Assembly (NCBI RefSeq): GCF_020151015.1
Contig: NZ_CP083746.1
Coordinates: 2,695,001-2,759,000, forward strand
Direction: 5' to 3'
DNA length: 64,000 bases
DNA from: Pseudomonas sp. p1(2021b)
Lineage (GTDB): Bacteria > Pseudomonadota > Gammaproteobacteria > Pseudomonadales > Pseudomonadaceae
The notes under the pieces: model-generated
Databases searched by the model: none
What the model saw: only the letters and a program-made list of their open reading frames with translations
Told to the model about the DNA's origin: nothing
Made by a program: the position numbers and the translations under genes
Part shown: one piece after another, positions 17,330 through 30,501 of the stretch
Position numbering within the stretch: the first letter of the stretch is position 1
Layout: each line of letters opens with the position of its first letter

Positions 17330-20300
17330 ATGAAGTCGTCCTCCAAGCCTACCCTCGCCTCGCCACACAACCCGGCGCTGAGCCCGAGCCACCTGGCATT
17401 TCCGGTGGTCGGCATCGGCGCATCCGCCGGCGGGCTGGAAGCCATCTGCACCTTTTTCCGGCAGATGCCTGCCGATTGCGACATGGCCTTCGTGGTGGTC
17501 CTGCACCTGTCGCCCGACCACCAGAGCGTGGCCGACCGGATCATCCAGGAAACCACCGCCATGCCGGTGCAACAAGTCAGCGAACCGGTGCCGATCGAGC
17601 GCAACCACGTCTACGTGATTTCCCCGGCCAACCGCTTGTCCACCAACGACGGCTACCTGCGGGTCAGCCCGGCCAACCGCCGCCGGGGCGACCATGTGGC
17701 CATCGACCTGTTCTTCCGCGACCTGGCCGACGTGCACAAGGACCATGCCTTCTGCGTGGTGCTGTCCGGCACCGGGGCCGATGGCGCCGTGGGCCTTTCG
17801 CGGATCAAGGAGCAAGGCGGCGTGACCCTGGTGCAGTCGCCGGACGATGCGTTGTACGACAGCATGCCACGCGCGGCCCTGGAGACAGGCATGGTCGACA
17901 TGGTGCTGCCGGCCGCCGAAATGCCGCAGAAACTGCTGGAACTCTGGCACAACGCCCGCCAGGTCAAGCTGCCGCAGATCGAGGACGACAGCCTGCCGCC
18001 AGCACTCGGTAGCCGCAGGGGCGACCCGCGCCATGCCGAACCCTTGCTGGAGGAAATCCTCCTGCTGCTGCGCACCAACACCGGCCATGATTTCCAGCAC
18101 TACAAGCGCGCCACCGTGTTGCGCCGCATCGAGCGGCGCCTGCATGTCACCGGCCAGGCAGACCTCGCCGCCTATTACCGCTACCTGGAGCAGCACCGCG
18201 AGGAGTCCGCGGCGCTACTGGCCGACATGCTCATCGGCGTGACCAACTTCTTCCGCGACCGGGAGGCGTTCGAGGCACTGGAACGCCATGTGCTGCCGGA
18301 GCTGGTCAGCGACGGCGAAAGCGGCGACGGGCCGGGCGAGATCCGTATCTGGTCGGCGGGCTGCTCCACCGGCGAAGAGGCCTACAGCCTGGCCATGCTG
18401 GTGTGCGAGCAACTGGCCGTGGAGCGACGCGAGGCCAAGGTGCAGGTATTTGCCACCGACCTGGACGAACGGGCCATCGCCACCGCCCGTACCGGCAGTT
18501 ATACGGAGGCCATCGTCACCGACGTGCCGCCGGCGCGTCTGCGCCAGTTCTTCGTCAAGGAAGACCAGCACTACCGGGTGCGCAAGGAAATCCGCGAGAA
18601 GGTGCTGTTCGCCCGGCACAACCTGCTCTCCGACCCGCCGTTCTCCCAGATCGACCTGATCGTCTGCCGCAACCTGCTGATCTACCTCGATCGCGAGGTG
18701 CAGCAGGACATCCTGCAGATGTTCCATTTCGCCCTGCGCCCGGGCGGCCACCTGTTCCTGGGGTCGTCCGAATCGGCCGACCTCGGCAATGAGCTGTTCG
18801 CCCCGGTCGACAAGCGCAACCGTATCTTCCGTGCCCGCCCGGCGAGCCCTGCCAACCGCATGCCGGGGCGCCAACTGCCGGGCACGGAGCTGCTCGCCAC
18901 CCAGCCCGACAACCGCACCAAGGCCCGCCCCGGGCGCAAGCCCTCCTACGCCGAGGTGCACCACCGCGCCCTGGCCCGGCGTACGCCACCGAGCCTGATC
19001 GTCGATGGCGATGGCAACATCCTGCACATGAGCGAAGGCGTCGGGCGCTTCCTGCACCTGGTGGGCGGCGAGCCGAGCCGCAACCTGATCAACCTGGTGC
19101 TGCCCGCCCTGCGTCTGTCGCTGCGCAGCACCCTGTTCCAGGCACGCCAGGGCGCCCAGGCGGTCACCTCGCGCCCGGTCGACCTCGGCGAAGGCGAGCA
19201 TAAGGTGCAGGTCGAGATCGTGGTCCAGCCGCACAAGGACGAACCCTGTGGCAGCGAATGCCTGCTGGTGGTGTTCGAGGAGCGCATACCTGACCCTTCC
19301 CTGGTGCCTACCGGCGGTATCCGCCAAACCGACAGCATGGTGCTGGCCAACCTCGAACGCGAATTGCAGCGCACCCGCCTGCAACTGCAGGAAACCATCG
19401 AGCAGTCAGAGATCTCCAGCGAAGAACTGACCGCCTCCAACGAGGAAATGCAGGCGATCAACGAGGAGCTGCGCTCGGCCAGCGAAGAGCTGGAAACCAG
19501 CAAGGAAGAGCTGCAGTCGATCAACGAGGAACTGCTCACGGTCAACTACGAGCTCAAGAACAAGGTGGAGGAAACCGACAAGGTCAACGACTACCTGAGC
19601 AACCTGATCGCCTCCACTGCCATCGCCACGGTGTTCGTCGACCGCAACCTGCATATCCGCTGGTTCACCCCACGCGCCACCGACATCTTCAACATGCTGC
19701 CGGTCGATACCGGCCGCTCCCTGCTCGACATCACCCACCGCCTGGACTACCCGGAGCTGGCCGACGATGCCCGCGCGGTGGCCCAGGGCGAGACCACCAT
19801 CGAGCGCGAGGTCGGTGGCGAGAACCAGCGCTGGTACCTGGCCCGCCTGCTGCCATACCGTGCCAGCGAGCAGAAGATCGACGGCACCGTGCTGACTTTC
19901 ATCGACATCAGCAAGGGCCGCGCCGTGGAGGAGCGCCTGCGCCTGGGCGAGGAGCGCATGCGCCTGGTGGCCGAGAGCACCCACGAGTTCGCCATCATCC
20001 TGCTCGACGAACAAGGCCTGGTGACCGACTGGAACACCGGCGCCACACTGATCTTCGGCTACACCAAGGCCGAGGTAATCGGACGCAACTACGAGCTGAT
20101 CTTCACCGAGGAAGACCGCAAGGACGGCGTGCCCGCTCGCGAACTGCGCGGTGCCCGCCTCAACGGCCGGGGCCAGGACGAGCGCTGGCACGTGCGCAAG
20201 GACGGCAGCCGGTTCTATTGCAGCGGCGAGGTGTCGTTGCTCAAGGGCAGCAGCCTGCGCGGCTACGTGAAGATCGCCCGTGACCTGACCGGGCACAAGC

Positions 20301-21472
20301 GCCTGCATGACGAACAGTCCAAGCAACTGGCCGAGTCCCAGAGCAGCAGCCACATGAAGGACGAGTTCTTCGCCATCATGTCCCATGAGCTCAAGCACCC
20401 GCTGAACCTGATCCAGCTCAACGCCGAGATCCTCCGGCGCCTGCCGGTGGTGAAGAACGCCACCGCCGCCAGCAAGGCGGTCGGCACCATCTGCGAGGCC
20501 GTGGCCAGCCAGGCACGGATCATCGACGACTTGCTCGATGTGGCGCGCATCCGTACCGGCAAGCTCAAGCTCAAGACCGAGCCCGTAGACCTGTGCGCGA
20601 TCCTACGCGACATCCACGCCGTGGTGCGCAGCGAGCAGCACCCGTGCGATGTGGTACTGGAGCTGTCTGCTGACAGCCAGCCGCTGTACATCGAGGGCGA
20701 TATCACCCGCCTGGAACAGATCATCTGGAACCTGCTCAACAATGCACTGAAGTTCAGCCCCGCCGGCAGCCAGATTCGCCTGGTGCTGGGCCGCCAGGGC
20801 GAACAGGCCCTGCTGCACGTGATCGACCAGGGCGTGGGCCTGAGCGAGGAAAGTCTGGAAAACATCTTCGACCTGTTCACCCAGGCCGCCCCGCAACTGG
20901 CCAGCCACAGCCGTGAAGGGCTGGGGATCGGGCTGTCGCTGGTGCGCCAACTGGTCCAGGCCCATGGCGGTACTGTCCAGGCCAGCTCGCCTGGGCTCGG
21001 CAAGGGCTGCACCTTCATCGTTCGCCTGCCGCTGTGCGACCCCTGCCAGCAGTTGCAACGCGACGCCGGCGACCAGGGCAGCGAGGGGCGGCTCGACGGC
21101 ATCCGCGTGCTGCTGGTCGATGACGCTCCCGACGTGCTGGAGATCATGCAGCAGTTGCTGGAAATGGAAGGTGCCCTGGTGCACGCTTTCAGCGACCCGC
21201 AAGCAGCCCTGCAGGCCGCCGCGGGCAGCGAGTACGACATCATCCTCTCGGATATCGGCATGCCGGTCATGGACGGCCATGCCTTGATCAAGGCGCTGCG
21301 GGAAAGCCCACACCTGAGCACCATCCCCGCCATCGCCCTGACCGGCTACGGTGCCAGTGCCGACCAGTACAGGTCACGGCAATCGGGCTTCGATCGCCAT
21401 TTGAACAAACCCGTCGCCTACGATGAACTGGTCGAGGCCATCGAGGCATTGAGCGGCTCCCAGCCCTACTGA
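17330..21472 (+). CDS. CheB-CheR-PAS-histidine kinase-receiver hybrid protein
   Basis: 1380 residues. CheB-type methylesterase domain at about 25-205, with all three catalytic areas (GIGASAGG serine, VLHLSPDH histidine, GTGADGA aspartate). CheR methyltransferase at about 235-510 (RIWSAGCSTGEEAYS). A long coiled coil of EEL repeats follows at about 665-755, then two PAS domains to about 990. The HisKA domain has its histidine in MSHELKHP near 1018, then the HATPase (NLLNNALKFSP, GLGIGLSLV). A C-terminal receiver has its Asp near 1307 (LSDIGMP). It should be a cytosolic sensor kinase. No transmembrane segment or nearby chemoreceptor gene is present, so its methylation target is unknown. Confidence 0.93.
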   Translation: MKSSSKPTLASPHNPALSPSHLAFPVVGIGASAGGLEAICTFFRQMPADCDMAFVVVLHLSPDHQSVADRIIQETTAMPVQQVSEPVPIERNHVYVISPANRLSTNDGYLRVSPANRRRGDHVAIDLFFRDLADVHKDHAFCVVLSGTGADGAVGLSRIKEQGGVTLVQSPDDALYDSMPRAALETGMVDMVLPAAEMPQKLLELWHNARQVKLPQIEDDSLPPALGSRRGDPRHAEPLLEEILLLLRTNTGHDFQHYKRATVLRRIERRLHVTGQADLAAYYRYLEQHREESAALLADMLIGVTNFFRDREAFEALERHVLPELVSDGESGDGPGEIRIWSAGCSTGEEAYSLAMLVCEQLAVERREAKVQVFATDLDERAIATARTGSYTEAIVTDVPPARLRQFFVKEDQHYRVRKEIREKVLFARHNLLSDPPFSQIDLIVCRNLLIYLDREVQQDILQMFHFALRPGGHLFLGSSESADLGNELFAPVDKRNRIFRARPASPANRMPGRQLPGTELLATQPDNRTKARPGRKPSYAEVHHRALARRTPPSLIVDGDGNILHMSEGVGRFLHLVGGEPSRNLINLVLPALRLSLRSTLFQARQGAQAVTSRPVDLGEGEHKVQVEIVVQPHKDEPCGSECLLVVFEERIPDPSLVPTGGIRQTDSMVLANLERELQRTRLQLQETIEQSEISSEELTASNEEMQAINEELRSASEELETSKEELQSINEELLTVNYELKNKVEETDKVNDYLSNLIASTAIATVFVDRNLHIRWFTPRATDIFNMLPVDTGRSLLDITHRLDYPELADDARAVAQGETTIEREVGGENQRWYLARLLPYRASEQKIDGTVLTFIDISKGRAVEERLRLGEERMRLVAESTHEFAIILLDEQGLVTDWNTGATLIFGYTKAEVIGRNYELIFTEEDRKDGVPARELRGARLNGRGQDERWHVRKDGSRFYCSGEVSLLKGSSLRGYVKIARDLTGHKRLHDEQSKQLAESQSSSHMKDEFFAIMSHELKHPLNLIQLNAEILRRLPVVKNATAASKAVGTICEAVASQARIIDDLLDVARIRTGKLKLKTEPVDLCAILRDIHAVVRSEQHPCDVVLELSADSQPLYIEGDITRLEQIIWNLLNNALKFSPAGSQIRLVLGRQGEQALLHVIDQGVGLSEESLENIFDLFTQAAPQLASHSREGLGIGLSLVRQLVQAHGGTVQASSPGLGKGCTFIVRLPLCDPCQQLQRDAGDQGSEGRLDGIRVLLVDDAPDVLEIMQQLLEMEGALVHAFSDPQAALQAAAGSEYDIILSDIGMPVMDGHALIKALRESPHLSTIPAIALTGYGASADQYRSRQSGFDRHLNKPVAYDELVEAIEALSGSQPY

Positions 21473-21565
21473 CCGCTCATCCGGGTCTTGGCGCATCCGA
21501 CTCAACCTCCAGGCGCTTTTCCGGGCCAAATCCAGCAGGACCACTGGATTTTGCCTGGAGCCTGC

Positions 21566-21964
21566 ATGAAGTCCGTCAAGCACCGCGCCACCGTGATCTG
21601 TCGCCACGGCAGGAAGACCCGCAAATGGCTGTGGGTGAGAAAACCCAAGGCACCATGGACCCTGCCGGGCGGCAAGATCGAGCCCGGCGAGACGCCAGCC
21701 CAGGCTGCCGAGCGTGAGTTGCTCGAGGAAACCGGGCTCAAGGCCCAGGACCTGACCTTCCTGATGCGCTACGAATCGCCCCAGCGCGTGCATTACGTGT
21801 TCGAGGCCCTATTCACCGATGAGCCCCAGCCCGCCGCCAGTCACGAGATCGCCGACTGCTGTTTCGAACACCTCGACCGGGTGCCGACGATCAAGAATGA
21901 GATCAAGTTGCTGATCCAGTCGTTGCTCGCCTGCGACCAGACCCTGGCCGCGTCGGTGCGGTGA
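21566..21964 (+). CDS. Nudix hydrolase
   Basis: 132 residues from ATG 21566; the longer frame from 21488 adds an unlikely leader. The Nudix box is complete: GGKIEPGETPAQAAERELLE followed by ETGL (about residues 34-57), with the metal-binding REx2EE arrangement. Small single-domain Nudix enzymes cleave nucleoside diphosphate derivatives; substrate cannot be assigned. It follows the hybrid kinase gene by 93 bp and reads the same way. Confidence 0.88.
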   Translation: MKSVKHRATVICRHGRKTRKWLWVRKPKAPWTLPGGKIEPGETPAQAAERELLEETGLKAQDLTFLMRYESPQRVHYVFEALFTDEPQPAASHEIADCCFEHLDRVPTIKNEIKLLIQSLLACDQTLAASVR

Positions 21965-22051
21965 CTTTTTGGGAGGTGCTATGGTGCTAGACAAGCTCAA
22001 AGTGCCTTCGGTTGGTTTAATACTCTTCAACCGTGCACGCTCCGCTTGCTT

Positions 22052-22125
22052 GGTGGGAGATCACCCAGCCCTTTGGGCTGCGCTGTCGCGCAGAGAACAA
22101 GCGGCCGATGCTGCCCCTGTGGGAG
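22052..22125 (+). repeat. Dispersed 74-bp repeat, copy 2 (split from its REP by an IS)
   Basis: The same sequence as 1641-1714 (GCCC-TTT-GGGC hairpin, GCGCTGTCGCGCAGAGAACA, ending CCTGTGGGAG). In copy 1 the repeat continues directly into CGGGCTTGTCCCGCG; here that continuation is displaced to 23298, on the other side of the IS110 element. Confidence 0.85.
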
Positions 22126-22128
22126 ATT

Positions 22129-23091
22129 CTATGGTTGTGGGCAAGCATTTTTAGCTGTTCTGGTGACGTATTCGCCCTGACTCTTCAATAGGGCGAATGC
22201 GACTCTGGCGAGCTTCCTGGCCAAGATCACCAGGGCCTCGGTAGTAGCCTTACCTTTGCTCCTGTGGTGTGCATACACCTCTTTCCAGGCCACTGATCGA
22301 CTAGCCGACATTGCCGCATTGTGCAGAAGGCGTCGTATCTCAGAGCAGCCCCGCTTGGTGAGCCGCCGACGGCCGGTTTTTTGCCCGGAGTCAGAGATTT
22401 GCAAGTCCATGCCCAAGAAAGCGATGAATGAATCACCATTCTTGAAGTCCCCCCGGATAAACGCTGTCACCAACCCCACAGCGGTCAAAAATCCGATGCC
22501 TTCTATCTTTTGGCAGCGGGCGACCTGCTCGCTTAATCCGGCTTCGCGCACCAACTCCTTGAGCTTTTTCTGAAGCAGTACATCGAGTTTCTCCATGTTC
22601 TTGGCAAAGGATTTGAACACGGTCTCAAGGCTTCTTTCATTGGACCAGCTTTGCATCAAGGCGGTGCGTGCCGAGACCAGCGAGGCGCGGCGACGCAGAA
22701 GGCTCTGGAGCTTGCCGTAGACGGCTGGAGGTGGGCTCCAGGGACGTAGTCCACTGCCTTCGCGGGAAAGATAGCGAGAGAGTAGATAAGCGTCAGAGGC
22801 GTCCGTCTTCACCCGACCACCGACGCTCTTTCGATAGTTACTGAGCTGGAAGCCATCGACCACGTAGACTGCAAAGCCTTTTTCATAAGCCATCTCCACC
22901 AGGTCGAGATGGTAGGTATTCGTTGCTTCGACGCAGATAGCGGTATTGGCGGGTTGTTGTCCCAGCCATTTTTTGATTTCGGGTTTGGTATTTTTCAGCG
23001 AGGACTGTTCATCACGGTCTTCGAAATGGACAACCAATTCGACTTTGGCCACATCCACACCAATGATGAATTGGCTTACCTGCATTGCCAT
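22129..23091 (-). CDS. IS110-family transposase/recombinase (element A)
   Basis: 320 residues from ATG 23091, with GGGAG about ten bases upstream; a GTG at 23106 is an alternative. The N-terminal DEDD-type RuvC-like domain shows GVDVAK (first Asp), CVEATN (Glu) and KTDASDA (the last two Asp). The C-terminal Transposase_20 domain carries IEGIGFLTAVGLV and the catalytic serine region near RRLLHNAAMSAS. This is the IS110 group, which recombines using an RNA guide. It is only about 30% alike to element B by eye. No frameshift is seen, so it may be active. Confidence 0.92.
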   Translation of the reverse strand: MAMQVSQFIIGVDVAKVELVVHFEDRDEQSSLKNTKPEIKKWLGQQPANTAICVEATNTYHLDLVEMAYEKGFAVYVVDGFQLSNYRKSVGGRVKTDASDAYLLSRYLSREGSGLRPWSPPPAVYGKLQSLLRRRASLVSARTALMQSWSNERSLETVFKSFAKNMEKLDVLLQKKLKELVREAGLSEQVARCQKIEGIGFLTAVGLVTAFIRGDFKNGDSFIAFLGMDLQISDSGQKTGRRRLTKRGCSEIRRLLHNAAMSASRSVAWKEVYAHHRSKGKATTEALVILARKLARVAFALLKSQGEYVTRTAKNACPQP

Positions 23092-23124
23092 TGGCCACAC
23101 TCCCACGTATGGTTTTTCTGCTTG

Positions 23125-23280
23125 GAGGGGTTTTCACCAAGAGGCGCTGGCTTGCTTCTATCGTCGCTTGCAAACGATGCATTCTTTATCGGCGCTTTGG
23201 TGAAGGGGTGGGGCGATGTCTCCCACGGTCTGTACTGCGGCTAACAGTCAGAATCGGCTTTTTCGTCCCACCACCCCTTC
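23125..23280 (-). ncRNA. Candidate bridge RNA of IS110 element A
   Basis: In transposase orientation there are two stem-loops. First, GGGGTGG (23271-23277) pairs with CCACCCC (23205-23211); its loop holds GTGGGAG (23220-23226 on +), the exact complement of the host target flank CTCCCAC next to the CT core. Second, TTCACCAA (23197-23204) pairs with TTGGTGAA (23133-23140) plus GCGC/GCGC; its loop holds GCAAG (23151-23155), which can pair with the element's own left end CTTGT using one wobble, and AGAAT (23181-23185), equal to its right end AGAAT before CT. This matches target-binding and donor-binding loops of IS621-type bridge RNAs. The left target guide is weak. Confidence 0.65.
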
Positions 23281-23296
23281 AAGTATCACCATACAA

Positions 23297-23380
23297 GCGG
23301 GCTTGTCCCGCGATTGGGCCGGGCCCGATATCACCGTCGCCTGGCAAGGGCTTCGCCCTTGATCGCGGGACAAGCCCGCT
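23297..23380. repeat. REP pair separated from its flanks by two IS110 elements
   Basis: GCGGGCTTGTCCCGCG at the left, CGCGGGACAAGCCCGCT at the right, and the spacer GATATCACCGTCGCCTGGCA with AAGGGCTTCGCCCTT, nearly identical to the intact pair at 1707-1805. The outer bases of both units (GGAG and CTCC) have been moved away by the two IS elements. Confidence 0.9.
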
Positions 23381-23409
23381 TGTGTCTTCGCAAGAGGTAA
23401 GGTGTTAGG

Positions 23410-23565
23410 TGAGAGGGGTGGACGGCAAGCTGCTAGCTCGCGGTGCCATGAGCACGGGTAGGAGCCGAGCTGCCGTCCACTCTTCTCGCTCTGGCTCAAG
23501 CTCGAACAGTTGACTGAGTCCGACCTCGAACAACAAGCGTGAGCCAGGCCAGAGCGACCTCTCAT
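23410..23565 (+). ncRNA. Candidate bridge RNA of IS110 element B
   Basis: Two hairpins precede the transposase. Hairpin 1 has stem GTGGACGGCA (23418-23427) with TGCCGTCCAC (23471-23480). Its internal loop holds GCTCGC (23436-23441), equal to host left flank GCCCGC apart from one wobble-compatible base, and GTAGGAG (23458-23464), the exact complement of host right flank CTCCTAC. Hairpin 2 has stem CGCTCTGGCTCA (23487-23498) with TGAGCCAG...AGAGCG (23540-23556). Its loop holds ACAGTTGACT (23506-23515), 9/10 equal to the element's right end ACAGTTGGCT, and ACAAG (23533-23537), the complement of its left end CTTGT. This is the expected order of target and donor guides. Confidence 0.75.
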
Positions 23566-23588
23566 CTTCAAGACTAGAGGCTTTACTC

Positions 23589-24518
23589 ATGTCTGCCTAT
23601 GCCGGAATCGATGTTTCCAAAAATACCTTGCAAGTGGCCCTGTATCCCGAGGCCTCCGAGCTTTGCGTGACCAATGATGCTGCAGGGCTCGAAGTTATCG
23701 CCCAACATTTCAAAGCCCATGCGGTCGAGCGTGTGCTGGTCGAAGCTACCGGCGGTTACGAAAAGCTGTCGATCCGGTTGCTGGCCAAGGCCGGTTTGAA
23801 AGTGCAGCGAATCAATCCTGCCCGGGCACGTCAATTCGCCCTAGCCATGGGCAAGCGAGCCAAGACTGACCCTATCGATGCACGGATGCTAGCCTTATTT
23901 GCCTCCGCCTTGGAGGACAAGCATTTCGTTGTACCTGACGAGGCTCGCGAGCACCTGACCGAACTGGTCAATCAGCGCGATAGCCTGGTCCAGCAACGCG
24001 ATGACAATCGTCGCCGCATCAAGCAGGCCTCGCTGCCTGTTGTGCTGGAGCACTATAAAACGCTCGAATCGACATTACGCGTCTTGATCAAGGCATGCGA
24101 TGAACAGATCGCTGAGCAGAGTCGCCGTGTCGATGCAGACCTATTCGAACGCTTGAGCGAGATCAAGGGTGTGGGCAACGTCACCATTGCCAGTCTGTTC
24201 TGCTATCTGCCGGAACTGGGTGATCTGAACCGTGCGCAAGTAGCTGCCCTGGCGGGTGTGGCGCCCTACAACAACGACAGTGGGACCAAAAACGGAAAGC
24301 GCCATGTCTACGGCGGCCGGGCGAAACTGCGTCGTGCGGCCTACATGTGCACCTTGGTGATGGCACGCGTGAATCCAGATTTTAAAGCGCGATGGGCCCG
24401 GCTGCGCGCGAGCGGTAAGCCAGCAAAAGTAGCGCTGGTGGCATGCATGCGCGTGCTGCTGGTGAGGCTCAATGCCATGGTGCGTGATGGAACGCCATGG
24501 CGTGATCAGCCTGTCTGA
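23589..24518 (+). CDS. IS110-family transposase/recombinase (element B)
   Basis: 309 residues, intact. The DEDD domain shows YAGIDVSK (Asp), LVEATGGYE (Glu) and KTDPIDARML (two Asp). The C-terminal Transposase_20 domain has IKGVGNVTIASL, LAGVAPYNNDSG and the GRAKLRRAAYMCTL stretch with neighbouring residues expected at the serine site. A GAGG motif precedes the ATG. The structured leader upstream looks like a guide RNA. Codon use is less GC-biased than that of neighbouring housekeeping genes. Confidence 0.93.
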   Translation: MSAYAGIDVSKNTLQVALYPEASELCVTNDAAGLEVIAQHFKAHAVERVLVEATGGYEKLSIRLLAKAGLKVQRINPARARQFALAMGKRAKTDPIDARMLALFASALEDKHFVVPDEAREHLTELVNQRDSLVQQRDDNRRRIKQASLPVVLEHYKTLESTLRVLIKACDEQIAEQSRRVDADLFERLSEIKGVGNVTIASLFCYLPELGDLNRAQVAALAGVAPYNNDSGTKNGKRHVYGGRAKLRRAAYMCTLVMARVNPDFKARWARLRASGKPAKVALVACMRVLLVRLNAMVRDGTPWRDQPV

Positions 24519-24529
24519 AGGCACATCGG

Positions 24530-24553
24530 GTAGGCAGACTGGTGTCTGCCTAC
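24530..24553 (+). terminator. Hairpin at the end of IS110 element B
   Basis: GTAGGCAGAC (24530-24539), loop TGGT, GTCTGCCTAC (24544-24553): a perfect 10-bp stem (11 with the flanking G/C) 11 bp after the transposase stop. No T-run follows, so it may protect the mRNA or serve the element's right end rather than terminate. Confidence 0.55.
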
Positions 24554-24596
24554 CGCTGATACGTGCATTGGTCGGGTGGAAGTGAAAGACAGTTGG

Positions 24597-24673
24597 CTCC
24601 TACAGAAGAAGGCGGCGCTAGCTGCTTGTTCTCTGCGCGACAGCGCAGCCCTTCGGGCTGGGTAATCTCCCAC
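24597..24673 (-). repeat. Dispersed 74-bp repeat, copy 3 (inverted)
   Basis: The reverse complement reads GTGGGAGATTACCCAGCCC..GGGCTGCGCTGTCGCGCAGAGAACAAGC and ends TGTAGGAG, matching copies 1 and 2. Before the IS insertions it formed the inverted right flank of the REP pair now at 23297-23380. Confidence 0.82.
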
Positions 24674-24691
24674 CGAAGACTTGCGAAATCC

Positions 24692-24784
24692 CTGTGGCAG
24701 GCTTGACCCGCGATTGGCCGGCCCTGGTAGCGCGGTGCCATGCAAGGGCTTGGCTCTTGATCGCGGGGCAAGACCACACCTACA
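24692..24784. repeat. Degenerate REP pair
   Basis: TGTGGCAGGCTTGACCCGCGATTGG at the left and TTGATCGCGGGGCAAGACCACACC at the right, with CAAGGGCTTGGCTCTTG between. Several mismatches to consensus in both arms. Confidence 0.7.
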
Positions 24785-24793
24785 GCTTGGTGA

Positions 24794-25216
24794 TCAGGGC
24801 ACCAGGGTCCAACGGCCGCTGTTCTGGCGCTGGGCTGGCTCCACCGGGCCATCGTGCTGGGTGTAGAGGAACATCCCCGACTGGTCCGTGAGGCACTTGA
24901 GCGTCAGGGTATAGGTGGCATTACCGTCTGGATACCGTTCGGTCATGTTGATCTCACCCAAACCACGCTGGATGTTCCTGTATTCGTACTTGCCTTCCAT
25001 TTTGATATCGGTACCCAACACCTCCAGCGTATAGCGTTCACGCCCGAAATCGACCTTCACCATACGACCGGCATTGGGATTGCTGGGCTGATACAGCGGG
25101 TCGCTCAGGTTGATCATCTGTCGCTGGTTCAGGTCCAAAGGCACGTCACAGCTGGAAGCCATTGCTACGGCCGGAGCGACCAGGGCAAACAACACACACA
25201 GACTTTTGCGATACAT
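24794..25216 (-). CDS. Exported hypothetical protein
   Basis: 140 residues from ATG 25216, which follows AAGGAGATG. A signal peptide covers residues 1-20 (CVLFALVAPAVAMA). The mature protein has two cysteines (SSCDVPL near 23 and LKCLTDQ near 113), probably a disulfide. It looks like a beta-rich periplasmic domain (RYTLEVLGTDIKMEGKYEYR). No family recognised. Single gene beside the IS/REP region. Confidence 0.72.
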   Translation of the reverse strand: MYRKSLCVLFALVAPAVAMASSCDVPLDLNQRQMINLSDPLYQPSNPNAGRMVKVDFGRERYTLEVLGTDIKMEGKYEYRNIQRGLGEINMTERYPDGNATYTLTLKCLTDQSGMFLYTQHDGPVEPAQRQNSGRWTLVP

Positions 25217-25305
25217 AGGGACATCTCCTTGAAATGTCCTCCCCATGTTATGGATCCGTATCGCATGGTCTGTAGGAAAAGCTGCAAGTCTCGCCGCCCC
25301 TTACC

Positions 25306-25857
25306 TCACGCATGCACACTGTGCTGGCAAGCATCCGCCTCGATGGGCATCTCGTCGATGGCATGGATCATCCCACTCTCCAGCGCTTCCTTGGCACCGA
25401 GGATGCGCGGGTAGGCCATCAAGTAGCGCGGCACGTCCAACACCTCGGTGGCCCCTTCGGTGCGCTCGGCCACTATCTGGGCATACAGGCGCAGGTCGTA
25501 GTCCAGGCTCATCGCATATTCGGCCATGCGCGAATGGTCCACCGAGCCGTGCAAGGTCCAGTGGAACGGATGGAACAAGAATTTGCTCAACGCGCAGGCC
25601 GTGCGGTGCTCACCCGCCAGGAACAGGATATTGCCCATGGATTCCACCGTGCCCAGGTTATGGGTATGCACCTGTACCGGCAGCGAGCGCAGGAAGTTGT
25701 ACAGGGTGAACCCGTAGCTGCACTCCCCGCCCATGGTGGCGATATTGATCTGCAAGACCTCGGCACCCTGTTGCAGGGCCCGGGCGCTGGTGCTGATCAG
25801 GTTGCCGCAGGTGGACGAGTTGATCGGCCCGGTGAAGTGAATGATGTGTCTGGCCAT
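25306..25857 (-). CDS. ClpP-like serine protease family protein (orphan)
   Basis: 183 residues from ATG 25857 (GGAGGCAAGC upstream; a TTG at 25869 lies inside the ribosome site). The ClpP/crotonase fold is shown by INIATMGGECSYGFTLYNFL near 40-60, the nucleophile region GTVESMGNILFLAG near 72-85, and a histidine in LFHPFHW near 96. The end (GAKEALESGMIHAIDEM) matches the ClpP tail. I cannot place the third triad residue (Asp): leucine seems to stand there. No Clp ATPase is nearby. It may be a ClpP-related enzyme with an altered active site. Confidence 0.8.
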   Translation of the reverse strand: MARHIIHFTGPINSSTCGNLISTSARALQQGAEVLQINIATMGGECSYGFTLYNFLRSLPVQVHTHNLGTVESMGNILFLAGEHRTACALSKFLFHPFHWTLHGSVDHSRMAEYAMSLDYDLRLYAQIVAERTEGATEVLDVPRYLMAYPRILGAKEALESGMIHAIDEMPIEADACQHSVHA

Positions 25858-25897
25858 GCTTGCCTCCAAGGTTGGCGGAAATCATTCCAGTGAAACG

Positions 25898-26293
25898 TCA
25901 ATCGGATTGCTCGACGGCGTCCGGTGGCGCGCCGTTGCCGTTCTTGTCCTTTTCGCCCATGCGCTGGTACTGCTTGCGCAAGGCATGCAGCTCGGCCGAA
26001 TCCATGTCCTCCAGGGCCAACAGTGCTTTGTGTGCCTTGCGCGTGGTGCGCAGCAGCTCGTCGATCTTGATGTGCAACACGTCGTTGTCGCGGTTCTGGG
26101 TGTTCTGGATCAGGAACACCATCAGGAAGGTGATGATGGTGGTCGAGGTGTTGATCACCAGTTGCCAGGTGTCGTTGAAGTCGAACAACGGCCCGCTCAC
26201 GGCCCAGGCCACGATCAGCAACAGGGCGATGGCGAAGGTCAGCGGTCGGCCGGCCCATTTGGCCAGCCAGTGGGCGAAACGGTCGAATTTCAT
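25898..26293 (-). CDS. Low-affinity iron permease-family membrane protein
   Basis: 131 residues from ATG 26293; the longer frame adds unlikely sequence. Two close hydrophobic segments (about 18-35 and 43-63: LTFAIALLLIVAWAVSGPLF, then TSTTIITFLMVFLIQNTQNR) carry the signature of the Fet4-type low-affinity iron permease family (TITFLMVFLIQNTQNRD). The rest is a charged cytoplasmic helix. Bacterial members are short and not proven transporters. It is in line with the ClpP-like gene, 40 bp apart. Confidence 0.82.
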   Translation of the reverse strand: MKFDRFAHWLAKWAGRPLTFAIALLLIVAWAVSGPLFDFNDTWQLVINTSTTIITFLMVFLIQNTQNRDNDVLHIKIDELLRTTRKAHKALLALEDMDSAELHALRKQYQRMGEKDKNGNGAPPDAVEQSD

Positions 26294-26321
26294 GCCGGCA
26301 GTCCTCCTCAGCCACCCGGCA

Positions 26322-26456
26322 TCAGCCCGGCAGCTTGTCCTCGCCAGGCAAGCCTTGCAGGTCAGGGTCGTCGGGCAGGACCTCTGGGTCATCCTCAGGC
26401 TTCTCACTGGCCTGCGGTTGCGCGTTCAGTTCTTCGAAATCGGTGTCGGTGTTCAT
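26322..26456 (-). CDS. Small acidic protein
   Basis: 44 residues from ATG 26456 (AGAGGAA upstream). Composition is heavily D, E, P, L and G (PEDDPEVLPDDPDLQGLPG), with no hydrophobic core. It immediately precedes the iron-permease-like gene (28 bp) on the same strand. One of several tiny acidic proteins in this window; function unknown. Confidence 0.55.
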   Translation of the reverse strand: MNTDTDFEELNAQPQASEKPEDDPEVLPDDPDLQGLPGEDKLPG

Positions 26457-26643
26457 GGTTCGGTTCCTCTGCCAATGCCAGGCGGGCCAAATCCTCCCCT
26501 GGCATGCGGTGGAATCGCCGGCGGCGGCAAAGTTCAAAAACGATGCCCCGCTCCACTCGTCAAACTTCCTGAACCCTCACCGCCTGCGTCGAGTCGCAAT
26601 TCAAGGACAGACCTGCAACCCATCACGAACGAAGGACGGCAAC

Positions 26644-27561
26644 GTGAGTGATATCCGTATAGGCATTTCCGGTTGGCGCTACGGCCCCTGGCGCAAGGAT
26701 TTCTACCCCAAGGGGCTGCGCCAGGACGACGAACTGGCGTTCGCCTCGCGGGCGGTCAACAGCATCGAGATCAATGGCTCGTTCTATGCCCTGCAGACGC
26801 CGCAGCGCTATTGCCAGTGGCGCGACGCAACGCCGGACGACTTCGTGTTCTCGGTCAAGGCGCCGCGCTACATCACCCATGTGAGAAGGCTCAAGGACAT
26901 CGAGGAGCCCCTGGCCAACTTCTTCGCCTCCGGCCCGTTGCAGCTGGGCCACAAGCTGGGCCCGGTGCTCTGGCAGTTCCCGCCCAGCATGAAGTTCGAC
27001 GCGGCACGTTTCGCCGACTTCCTCGAACGCCTACCCCATGACCGTGCCGCTGCCCGAGCCTTGGCCGAGCACTGTGCCGAACGCCTACGGGGCAACGGCG
27101 GCACCGTTATCGAAGGCAACGCGCCTTTGCGCCATGCCATAGAGATCCGCCATGAAAGTTTCCTATGCACCGAGTTCGTAGAATTGCTACGCAAGCATAA
27201 GGTCGCCCTGGTGGTGGCCGACAGCGCCAGCAAGTGGCCCTATGTGGAGGATGTCACCGCCGACTTCATCTACATGCGCCTGCATGGCGACGTCGAGCTC
27301 TACAGCAGCGGCTACACCGCCCGCGCCCTGCGCCGTTGGAAGGAACGCATCCTGGCCTGGAGCCAGGGCGGCCAACCCGACGACGCCGAACTGATCGTCC
27401 AGCGAGCACCGCACAAGCGCGCCACTCGGGACGTCTACTGCTACTTCGACAATGACCAGAAAGTCCACGCACCCTACGATGCCCGCCGCCTGCTGGAGAA
27501 ACTGAACCTCGCCGGCGAGCTGGTCACTGAGCCTGGGGTGGAACCGGAGGTCGAATTGTGA
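26644..27561 (+). CDS. DUF72-domain protein
   Basis: 305 residues from GTG 26644, preceded by AAGGAC. The N-terminus [19 protein letters not shown] and [12 protein letters not shown] (near residue 40) are the DUF72 marks of this TIM-barrel-like family; the [15 protein letters not shown] stretch follows. DUF72 proteins (YecE type) are widespread and of unknown activity. The stop codon overlaps the GTG start of the next gene by four bases (GTGA), so it is translationally coupled to the ybhP-clsB-ybhN-like operon, an uncommon addition. Confidence 0.87.
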
Positions 27562-28343
27562 ACAAGACCATGCCAGCTCCCCGATGCATCATCGACAAGA
27601 TCACTGCGGTGCACCGTCTGAATGTGCTGACGATCAACGTGCATAAGGGCTTCACCCTGTTCAACCGGCGCTTCATCCTGCCCGAGCTGCGCGAGGCGGT
27701 GCGGGCCACCGGCGCGGACCTGGTGTTCCTCCAGGAGGTTCATGGCAGCCACCAGATGCACGCGCAGCGTCATCCGGCCTGGCCACAGACGCCGCAGTAC
27801 GAGTTTCTCGCCGACACCATGTGGCCACAGTTCGCCTACGGTCGCAACGCGGTCTACCCCCACGGCGACCATGGCAATGCCCTGCTGTCGAAATTCCCTA
27901 TCGCCGAATACCACAACCTCGATGTCTCGATTGCCGGCAACGAACAACGCGGCCTGCTGCATTGCCGCCTGGAAGTGCCAGGCCACGACCAGTTGCATGC
28001 GGTGTGTGTGCACCTGGGCCTGCGTGAAGCGCACCGCCAGGCCCAGGTCCGCCTGCTGCTGGAACTGCTCGACAGCCTGCCGGCCGATGCACCGGTCATT
28101 GTCGCCGGCGATTTCAATGACTGGCGGCTCAAGGCCGACGCGGTGCTGTCCGAACGCCTGGTCGAGGCCTTCGGCGAACGCCTGGGCACGCCGGCACGCA
28201 GCTTTCCGGCGCGCCTGCCCTTGCTGCGCCTGGACCGCATTTACCTGCGCAACGCCATGCCTGGCAGGGTCCAGGTGCTGTCCAAATACCCGTGGTCGCA
28301 CCTGTCCGACCATGCGCCGCTGGCGGCGGAGATCAGCCTATGA
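27558..28343 (+). CDS. ybhP: Endonuclease/exonuclease/phosphatase-family protein (YbhP-like)
   Basis: 261 residues, GTG start overlapping the DUF72 stop. It belongs to the metal-dependent EEP superfamily: [11 protein letters not shown] near 22, LVFLQEVHG near 55 (metal Glu), VCVHLGL near 150, GDFNDWR near 180 (Asp/Asn) and the final SDHAPL (Asp-His). In enterics this gene (ybhP) precedes clsB. Its stop codon overlaps the next start, so the products are made together. A role in phospholipid or headgroup hydrolysis is plausible but unproven. Confidence 0.85.
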
Positions 28344-29542
28344 ATCGGCCTTGGGTGGAAGGCAACCATGTGCAGTTGCTGATCAATGGCGAGCAGTACT
28401 ACCCACGCGTGTTCGAGGCCATGGCCCGGGCACGTGAAGAGATCCTGCTCGAGACCTTCATCATCTACGACGACAAGGTCGGCCAGCAGCTGCAACAGGT
28501 ACTGATCGATGCCGCCCGGCGTGGCGTGCGGGTCGAAGTGGCCGCCGACGGCTACGGTACCGCCGACCTGCCGGACACCTTCATTTCGGCCATGACCGAA
28601 GCCGGTATCCGCTTCCACGCCTTTGACCCGCAGCCACGCCTGGTGGGCATGCGCACCAACCTGTTCCGGCGCCTGCACCGCAAGATCGTAGTGATCGACG
28701 GCGAGCTCGCGTTCATTGGCGGCATCAACTACAGCGCTGACCACCTGGGCGACTTTGGCCCCATGGCCAAGCAGGACTATGCCGTGGAGGTACGCGGGCC
28801 GGTGGTGGCCCAGGTGCACGCCACCAGCCGCCGGCTGCTGGCGCCGGTGCTGGAGCCGCCCAGCCAGGTGCGCCCGGTGACCGAGCCCAGCGGCTCGGCC
28901 TGCGCGGTGCTGGTGGAGCGCGACAACGGCCGCCACCGCAACGACATCGAAGCCTACTACCTGGAAGGTTTTCGCTTGGCCCGCCAACGCATCGTGGTGG
29001 CCAACGCCTACTTCTTCCCCGGTTACCGCCTGATGCGCGAACTGCGCAACGCCGCGCGCCGGGGCGTTGAGGTGGTGCTGATCCTCCAGGGCCAGCCGGA
29101 CATGCGCTGGGTCCGCGCCCTGTCGCGGCTGCTGTACAACTACCTGCTGCGCGACGGCGTGCGCATCCATGAGTACTGCCAACGCCCGCTGCACGGCAAG
29201 GTCGCACTGGTGGACGACCAATGGGCCACGGTCGGCTCGAGTAACCTCGACCCCTTGAGCCTGTCGTTCAACCTGGAGGCCAACCTGCTGATCCGTGACC
29301 GTGCTTTCAACCAGACGCTGTACCAGCACCTGAACGAACTGGCCAACGAACACTGCAAGGCCGTCACCCTGGAGCGCATGGTGCGGGGCTATTGGTGGCG
29401 GGCGCCGCTGATCTTCCTGTGCTTCCACGTGATTCGCCACTTCCCGCGGATCGCCGGCTGGTTTCCCGCCCACCGCCAGGTCCTGCAGTCGCTGTGCCCC
29501 GGCGAACAGGAAACCCAGGCCTATCACGAGGGCAAGACCTGA
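28340..29542 (+). CDS. clsB: Cardiolipin synthase B
   Basis: 400 residues from ATG 28340, overlapping the previous stop. Two phospholipase-D HKD motifs are complete: [16 protein letters not shown] near 114 and [18 protein letters not shown] near 290. The enzyme joins phosphatidylglycerol molecules (or PG with phosphatidylethanolamine) into cardiolipin at the inner membrane. ClsB lacks the N-terminal transmembrane helices of ClsA, as seen here. Gene order ybhP-clsB-ybhN is conserved with E. coli. Confidence 0.92.
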
Positions 29543-30501
29543 TGGAGCACACGCCTTGGCGCACCTGGGGCAAACGCCTGATGACCCTGTTGTTCCTGGT
29601 GCTGATCCCGACCTTGCTGTACCTGCTGGCACGCAACCTGGACTGGAACGAGGTGCGCCAGTCGTTGCTGGCCTACAAGCCCGGTACCCTGGCCATCGGC
29701 CTGGTGCTGGCGTTCGCCAGCTACCTGACTTTCGCCAGCTACGACCTGCTCGGCCGCGCCTATACCGGCCATCACCTGCCGGCTCGCCAGGTACTGCCGG
29801 TTGCGTTCGTGTGCTACGCCTTCAACCTCAATTTCACCACCTGGGTGGGCGGCGTGGCCTTGCGCTACCGGCTGTACGGGCGCCTGGGCCTGGATACACC
29901 GACCATCACCCGCATCCTCACCCTGGGCCTTCTGACCAACTGGGTGAGCTATATGCTGCTGGCGGGAACGGTGTTCGCCCTGGGCCTGGTCGAGATGCCC
30001 AACAACTGGGCGGTGGGCGCCACTGGCCTGCGCTTGATCGGTGTGCTGCTGCTGGCACTCGCCCTGGGCTACCTGCTGGCCTGCGCCTTCGCCAAGCGTC
30101 GCACCTGGAGCCTGCGGGGACACGAGCTCACCCTGCCCTCGCTGCGCCTGGCGCTGTGCCAGGTGGCCCTGGGCGCGGCCAACTGGGCATTGATGGCAGC
30201 ACTGATCCACTGGCTGCTGCCCCATGAGCTGTTCTACCCGTCGATCCTCGGCATTCTCCTGATCAGTTGCGTGGCCGGTGTGGTGGCGCATATTCCCGCC
30301 GGGCTCGGCGTGCTCGAGGCGGTGTTCCTCGCCCTGCTCCACGGCCAGATCGGCCAGGGCAGCCTGGTGGCCGCGCTGTTGGGCTACCGTACCCTGTACT
30401 ACCTGATTCCCTTGCTGCTGGCGCTGCTGGTGTACCTGGTCCTGGAGAAACGTGCCAGGGCCATGCGCCGGCGTGGCAAGGCCGCAATGCGCAAGACCTG
30501 A
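29542..30501 (+). CDS. ybhN: YbhN-like integral membrane protein (lysylphosphatidylglycerol synthetase TM-domain family)
   Basis: 319 residues, about eight membrane segments. The start ATG shares one base with the clsB stop. Family features: NLNFTTWVGGVALRYRLYGR near 95 and PAGLGVLEAVFLALL near 254, as in YbhN/UPF0104 and the flippase domain of MprF. It may move or organise phospholipids made by ClsB. No synthetase domain is attached. Confidence 0.88.
   Translation: MEHTPWRTWGKRLMTLLFLVLIPTLLYLLARNLDWNEVRQSLLAYKPGTLAIGLVLAFASYLTFASYDLLGRAYTGHHLPARQVLPVAFVCYAFNLNFTTWVGGVALRYRLYGRLGLDTPTITRILTLGLLTNWVSYMLLAGTVFALGLVEMPNNWAVGATGLRLIGVLLLALALGYLLACAFAKRRTWSLRGHELTLPSLRLALCQVALGAANWALMAALIHWLLPHELFYPSILGILLISCVAGVVAHIPAGLGVLEAVFLALLHGQIGQGSLVAALLGYRTLYYLIPLLLALLVYLVLEKRARAMRRRGKAAMRKT

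Follow-up and report, generated by a model that had tools for sequence, protein, structure and literature searches.

What is encoded in the long leader that precedes the transposase gene of an IS110-type element lying in the window (the whole stretch of 64,000 nucleotides of Pseudomonas DNA that was analysed), and how does this element, termed here element B, come to sit in a REP repeat? The preliminary description had taken the leader for a complete IS110 bridge RNA. We consider, with a probability of about 95%, that the leader would indeed encode, on the strand of the transposase gene, a bridge RNA targeting the REP site. The label of a complete bridge RNA seems right from the sequence, but the kind is already published: element B is a bridge-RNA (seekRNA) system of the sort already known, and REP targeting by Pseudomonas IS110 elements is known too.

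Element B is 1218 bp long when one of its two CT cores (23379-23380 and 24597-24598) is counted, and it consists of a leader of 210 nt, the transposase gene (23589-24518) and 78 nt downstream (Table 1). Its left end reads CT followed by TGTGTC from 23379, its right end reads ACAGTTGG followed by the CT of the core at 24597-24598, and the host flanks are AAGCCCG on the left and CTCCTAC on the right. The protein carries both IS110 domains, PF01548 (DEDD_Tnp_IS110) and PF02371 (Transposase_20), with the DEDD and SG residues by which the IS110 family is recognized, the latter within a G--P----SG motif. D8, E52, D94 and D97 together with the SG pair are what we take to be the catalytic residues, which fits the alignment with the solved relatives; at E <= 0.001, these are only IS621 (4.6e-26) and ISCro4 (5.8e-24). 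The non-coding region is long upstream and short downstream, and there are no long subterminal repeats, which places the element in the IS110 group and sets it apart from the IS1111 type with its long repeats and long downstream region. When the outer 60 nt of the two ends are compared, inverted repeats reach at most 6 bp, the longest being subterminal (AAGACA/TGTCTT), whereas the available part of the IS621 paper gives a 3-base one (PMC11208160).

The element is inserted at the CT core of a REP repeat, and AGCCCG and CTCCTAC flank all six of the six full copies of the own genome. Copies at unrelated sites with unchanged guides, which the preliminary description had named as the case that would speak against it, are thus not seen in this genome. 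With at most two mismatches, this genome has 473 REP-like sites in the forward and 480 in the reverse orientation, and the reversed REP pattern, used as a control, gives 13 and 14. The region 24790-25300 was searched in 38 genomes for an orthologous empty site and only the own genome matched, so that the target of element B is read from the two REP halves.

Table 1. Coordinates of the features of element B and of its surroundings in the window.
Feature	Position	Strand	Basis or remark
Element B, IS110 group	23379..24596	+	Ends the same in six full own-genome copies, whose surroundings differ
REP target, left half, GCGGGACAAGCCCG	23365..23378	+	Sequence and own-genome copies
REP target, right half: CT core then CCTACA	24597..24604	+	Sequence and own-genome copies
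DEDD transposase/recombinase, 309 aa	23589..24518	+	D8, E52, D94, D97; G223..P226....S231-G232
Predicted bridge-RNA core: outer GAGAG/CTCTC around the target-binding and donor-binding hairpins	23411..23563	+	Fold; 32-relative alignment; compensatory pairs
Left target guide (LTG), AGCTCG	23435..23440	+	One U-G wobble with its own REP
Right target guide (RTG), GTAGGAG	23458..23464	+	Complement of CTCCTAC
Left donor guide (LDG), ACAGTTG	23506..23512	+	Equals the right end of element B
Right donor guide (RDG), ACAAG	23533..23537	+	Complement of the left end CTTGT; varies with the left end in relatives
TAAGGT, -10-like half of the candidate junction promoter (TTGGCT-17-TAAGGT)	23398..23403	+	Sequence
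TTGGCT, -35-like half of the candidate junction promoter, right end	24593..24598	+	Sequence
Rfam sX15 (RF02234) match	23403..23566	-	45.7 bits, E 4.6e-5; under the gathering threshold of 55
TAGTCT, -10-like hexamer on the antisense strand, shortly before the 5' end of sX15	23571..23576	-	Sequence

The leader is predicted to fold into two hairpins (-88.2 kcal/mol, z -4.56, with none of 200 shuffles as low), and the guides follow each other in the order LTG-RTG-LDG-RDG. Sequence, fold and shuffles agree with the preliminary description on the four guide segments and the two hairpins, and on where they lie, with two adjustments. The left guide that it gave as GCTCGC at 23436-23441 is present, but we place it as AGCTCG at 23435-23440; its 9/10 match for the LDG holds as a match, but the mismatched base stands one position ahead of the core (ACAGTTGACT vs ACAGTTGGCT).

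Such short matches could be due to chance or to common ancestry with REP DNA, especially as REP is very common in the own genome. Indeed, when the leader is shuffled 20,000 times with its dinucleotides preserved, the left target guide (5.5/6) recurs 7603 times (38%) and the right donor guide (5/5) 4234 times (21%), while the right target guide (7/7) is found 463 times and the left donor guide (7/7) 208 times. The first and the last of the four guides are therefore weak evidence when taken one by one, and the strength lies in the set of four, in its order and in its conservation. The four guides together were found in none of the 20,000 shuffles, nor in any of somewhat fewer than 20,000 random 189-nt stretches of the window (those starting within 23000-23700 being skipped). 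Moreover, as detailed below, the guides of relatives inserted elsewhere, at attC-like or other sites, correspond to the site in question, and we hold chance or shared REP ancestry to be the least credible of the alternatives considered here.

The relatives were drawn from 398 Pseudomonas genomes, of which 32 match at E <= 1e-30 (the own genome included), and from three named loci, to which the genomes reached through sX15 and extra copies were added; G197 and G142 lie outside this sample. The left and right targets were read off from the ends of the elements, with one consensus target per genome, and the covariation test comprised 77 copies from 37 genomes, G156 (L059-L062) being added later as the 38th. 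Left out were the own copies L001 and L003-L006 (repeats of L002), L010 (same as L103), most of L011-L050 (partial, or repeats of places fetched later), 13 loci without a CTTGTGTC-type left end (among them G339, four copies of G188, G228 and G132), L033 and L076 (left flank shorter than 6 nt), L034 (end misplaced) and L107 (no right end). Among the sX15 loci, those without a transposase match at E <= 1e-8 were left out, as were L111, L113, L114 and L120 (no usable right end), L112, L126, L136 and L140 (no left end), L117, L118, L131, L137 and L139 (repeats) and L164 (left end misassigned).

The targets of these relatives are diverse, with six forms on the right side in the 37 genomes (CTCCTAC, CTCCCAC, CTTCCTA, CTGAATT, CTGAGTT and CTCTCCC), and the guides change with them. 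The right guide fits its own target 7/7 in 34 of the 37 genomes and 6.5 in the three others; with G156, the fit is perfect in 35/38 and contains one wobble in three. The total fit on the right side is 257.5, against a mean of 198.2 and a maximum of 234.5 when the targets are permuted among genomes, and the left guides reach 195 of 222, against a permuted mean of 153.2 and a maximum of 173. None of 20,000 permutations attained either value, and the same is true with 38 genomes (left 200.5 vs a permuted maximum of 181, right 264.5 vs 248.5). These permutations ignore kinship, so the number of target changes on the protein tree is the safer measure: at least 8 on the right and at least 17 on the left, counted on a quick tree with long branches in which the row of G938 has a quarter of its columns. 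Guide changes thus follow target changes, which is the check that the preliminary description had proposed.

Individual cases illustrate this. In P. massiliensis, the target contains one T more (CTTCCTA), and the guide correspondingly one A more (TAGGAAG). A target with TAACGC on its left and CTGAATT on its right is paired with the guides TAACGC and AATTCAG, and another with CAACCC and CTCTCCC is paired with TAACCC and GGGAGAG. The sites TAACGC followed by CTGAATTA can be read from their sequence as integron attC ends, and the fit between guide and target holds for three kinds of target: REP, attC-like and one other. The misfits concern the left guide of G165 (4/6), G903 (3), G910 (3.5) and G938 (3, a broken copy whose left end is doubtful), as well as that of G188, and the distant locus L036 of G269 (left 2.5/6, right end absent). 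Some loci were scored afterwards: L021, L027, L033, L059-L061 and L076 fit (right 7/7), L062 reaches 6.5, and L035 and L040 have no left end.

On the donor side, the RDG was scored against the left end in 37 of the 38 genomes, with 29 pairs of CTTGT/ACAAG, six of CTTAT/ATAAG, one of CTTAG/CTAAG and one misfit (G957). The LDG and the right end are near-invariant, so they match but carry no covariation information. Of what characterizes a bridge RNA or seekRNA, the following is found here: two predicted structured loops in the leader, target guides that match the target and co-vary with it, and donor guides that match the element's own ends, the RDG with covariation and the LDG by its match only. 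The covariation between guides and targets argues for the reading as an IS110 bridge RNA programmed as in IS621. It also bears on a different explanation, in which the leader would be a folded 5'-UTR controlling the translation of the transposase, regulated by an antisense RNA as in ISPpu9, with guide matches that are incidental. ISPpu9, whose 5'-UTR is 244 nt long and whose antisense RNA Asr9 covers the tnp 5'-UTR according to the accessible part of its description (PMC8450116), offers a precedent, and an antisense -10-like hexamer is conserved in the relatives of element B. A 5'-UTR has, however, no reason to track the insertion site, whereas here the target guides change with targets of several kinds, and the donor guide with the end of the element. 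We regard this explanation as very unlikely, and regulation by the leader may be an added role beside that of bridge RNA.

The pairing footprint can be delimited from the 38 genomes, although anchoring the guides at their best local fit flatters these figures. At the left positions -5 to -1, 169 of 190 cells are Watson-Crick pairs, 13 are wobbles and 8 are mismatches, and the pairing weakens from -6 outward. At the right positions 0 to 6, Watson-Crick pairs make up 263 of 266 cells, the three others being wobbles, and position 7 pairs in 27/38. The right guide pairs with both bases of the core, while the left guide does so poorly (24/38 for the first base and 10/38 for the second). The left target pairing of the relatives is thus of 5-6 nt, mostly without the core, and the right one of 7-8 nt, whereas IS621 is described with the core in all four pairings, a detail that does not define the family; RTGs that are longer are mentioned for some IS621 orthologues in the part of that paper at hand (PMC11208160).

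The predicted structure of the RNA is conserved as well. With 32 relatives, RNAalifold gives a structure of three stems (target, upper donor and a small inner one); the outer GAGAG/CTCTC stem lies outside the structure that was counted. In this structure, 98.4% of the cells pair, against 35-44% in slid versions, and both sides have changed in 16 of the 23 pairs, 13 of these in the target stem. The covariation score reaches 0.506, compared with 0.057-0.111 in slid versions and 0.166 in pair shuffles that ignore kinship, while the further pair types are not above these shuffles (30 vs a mean of 30.7). Compensatory change is therefore strong in the target stem and sparse in the near-invariant donor stem.

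Which strand would carry the guides has also to be considered, since the sole Rfam match is on the minus strand and sX15 is catalogued as an sRNA. The working guide RNA could then be the antisense, sX15-like strand, and the sense leader merely its complement. The sense strand, however, has the bottom-strand guide before the top-strand guide, as do the IS110-type seekRNAs in the consulted part of their description (PMC11187229), and the candidate junction promoter points in the sense direction. In addition, the guide cells that are not Watson-Crick pairs comprise 16 wobbles if the RNA is sense and 2 if it is antisense, besides 6 transversions. The composition of the targets favours sense wobbles about 2:1, and the left guide has 7 vs 2 distinct cases, so this last argument is a modest one. 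An antisense guide seems to us even less likely than incidental matches in a 5'-UTR, and we retain the sense-strand bridge RNA.

The ends of the element suggest how this RNA could be expressed. The right end supplies a TTG at the core in 38/38 elements, and a TANNNT is found in the left end at exactly 17 nt from the right-end hexamer in 36/38 (TTG-N20-TANNNT). The match to TATAAT averages 3.58 at this spacer, and between 0.45 and 2.82 at every other spacer from 8 to 31. The hexamers of element B itself match the consensus at only 7/12 positions and would make a weak promoter. In the inserted form, the REP half CCCGCT stands in place of TTGGCT; as the -35 comes from the right end, the candidate promoter is complete only on the excised circle. 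A promoter scan of 23280-23680 found none, in the inserted form, the junction of the circle lying outside such a scan. The arrangement fits a promoter made by circle formation, as in IS621. According to this model, excision would join the ends of element B as a circle, bringing the right-end -35 within 17 nt of the left-end -10 and switching on the bridge RNA, which, together with the DEDD/Ser recombinase, would pair the junction with the REP core, and recombination across CT would then insert the element. Taken together, the left half of the REP and the opening bases of the element (23365-23379, + strand) are scored as a terminator-like hairpin with a T-rich tail. Such a hairpin could protect the leader, once inserted, against transcription entering from outside.

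The left target guide of element B does not suit its present genome perfectly. In each of the six full copies, the pairing at -3 is a U-G wobble; perfect sites for this guide (AGCTCGCTCCTAC) number 0 in the own genome and 59 in that of P. psychrophila HA-4, and the wobble sites (AGCCCGCTCCTAC) 292 and 8, respectively. This strain carries the closest fetched relative of element B (L008, transposase 92% identical), in which the target hairpin is identical and AGCTCG fits the site perfectly. Since perfect sites are absent at home and there are 59 of them in HA-4, the left guide looks imported from another Pseudomonas lineage. The element would have come from a Pseudomonas whose REP reads AGCTCG and would now occupy AGCCCG sites through the U-G wobble. 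In several other lineages too, the guide has a U or a G where a wobble meets the target, and such wobbles may be a way to tolerate REP drift.

Two of the six copies are identical over the whole element, and a single 1-nt deletion, situated about midway in the transposase gene, is found in all four others (L003-L006), which are otherwise identical to the copy of the window. As this deletion is common to the four, a copy with a defective gene seems to have spread. Such copies presumably used the enzyme of the intact ones, with the help of which they would have moved; copying by homologous recombination is an alternative route. The own genome also contains a right-end fragment of a B-type element joined to CTCCTACAG, with 41 nt matched (L007:1501-1541 = C1:1653389-1653429).

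The opposite strand of the leader connects element B to a catalogued RNA family. In 18000-30000, the only Rfam match at E <= 1 is that of sX15, on the minus strand, and the sX15 model, with its 159 positions, spans the predicted bridge RNA. With stricter filters, a search of 369 genomes of the class matched a single genome and did not report the own one; in the family of that genome, 35 of 198 genomes match at E <= 0.001, 22 of them over the cut-off. We take these to be Xanthomonadaceae from the name of the Rfam family and from plasmid matches, which are in Xanthomonas in 20/23 records. Thirty sX15 loci (L111-L140) were inspected, and in 21 of them an IS110 gene lies on the opposite strand beside the 5' end of sX15. 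All 21 genes were found with the element B protein alone, and the IS110 alignment begins 22-40 nt from sX15 in 20 of them, the other (L126) being truncated; five of the 30 loci lie at a contig end on the IS110 side. Most sX15 loci thus appear to represent the strand antisense to a bridge RNA of this kind. In L116, L123, L127 and L128, sX15 matches without an adjoining antisense IS110 gene though the sequence is present, L116 having only a same-strand IS110 fragment 743 nt away; these are possible orphan guide RNAs or relics.

sX15 is reportedly among the sRNAs found by dRNA-seq in X. euvesicatoria 85-10. The dRNA-seq study counts 24 sRNAs in this strain (PMC3771888). On plasmid pXCV183 of the strain, sX15 matches with 150.9 bits (L174:2022-2180, minus strand) over a stretch that carries no annotation; on the sense strand, an IS110 leader is recognized by eye, followed by a transposase gene that breaks off after its first codons. 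In the relatives of element B, an antisense TANNNT lies at most 22 nt after CTCTC in 37 of the 37 counted, a number that stands without a shuffled control, and since this motif lies next to the probable ribosome-binding region, it may be conserved for a different reason. For ISPpu9 of P. putida, the consulted text states that overproduction of Asr9 raised both translation and transposition (PMC8450116), which argues against a simple sequestering of the guide RNA.

From these elements, we tentatively propose a broader picture, which taken as a whole is rather doubtful. In an IS110 clade extending from Pseudomonas to Xanthomonas, a conserved antisense RNA would overlap the whole bridge RNA and start beside the start codon of the transposase, with sX15 and Asr9 as two cases; it would base-pair with both the guide RNA and the leader of the mRNA, and thereby control the frequency at which the element moves; and the sX15 locus of strain 85-10 would be a relic with a cut-short transposase gene, in which the antisense RNA has outlived the element. 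No title or abstract opening linking sX15 with IS110 was found among the papers that the searches listed, a scope that leaves outside most subscription papers and all preprints.

Element B can be situated among the known systems, as far as the consulted parts of their descriptions go. Like IS621 of E. coli (PMC11208160), it has an RNA (predicted in element B) from the leader upstream of the gene, with a target and a donor loop that each bear left and right guides, a CT core and a REP target; a promoter formed at the joined ends, as in IS621, is a candidate feature of element B, and its protein is related to the DEDD recombinase of IS621 over its length. As in the IS110/IS1111 seekRNA systems (PMC11187229), the RNA of a non-coding region would pick the target and the protein has the G--P----SG motif; the location of this region upstream of the gene and the guide order are those of the IS110 type. 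Its transposase has 309 aa, against 345-455 aa in the named IS110-type clusters of the same source. ISPpu9 and ISPpu10 of P. putida KT2440 (PMC1525189, PMC8450116) are also IS110 elements, which are inserted at one constant position within the Pseudomonas REP and have a 2-bp repeat at their ends; the text at hand describes no guides for them. Finally, RF02234 (sX15, Xanthomonadaceae) represents the same kind of locus as the leader of element B, on the opposite strand, and is catalogued as an sRNA. As for plasmids, tblastn with element B gave 2414 records, all 2414 below 60% identity, and blastn of the whole element gave no match. The names that the sources attach are generic ones, for instance 'IS110 family transposase'.

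These observations provide a natural record of bridge-RNA re-aiming, in which the architecture of one clade is aimed at the REPs of several Pseudomonas lineages and also at attC-like and a third kind of sites, with guides that change to match. The U-G wobble shared by six copies, in a genome devoid of the perfect target, is informative about specificity and bears on how bridge recombinases behave away from their intended targets. Through sX15, an Rfam sRNA family is connected with the strand opposite to a mobile-element guide RNA, which raises antisense control as a testable idea.

A second and different IS110 element, element A, lies next to element B at 22126-23297 on the minus strand and has four copies in the own genome. 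It has a CT core and REP flanks AAGCCCG and CTCCCAC, and its leader contains a perfect right guide, GTGGGAG, along with weaker guide-like segments; its left guide fits its own REP partly, a script giving 5/6 at AGACCG and AGCCAG, and inspection by eye pointing to AGCCGC. By eye, elements A and B lie head to head in two inverted REP arms at 23280-23378, so that each arm of one REP pair is occupied by a different IS110 element.
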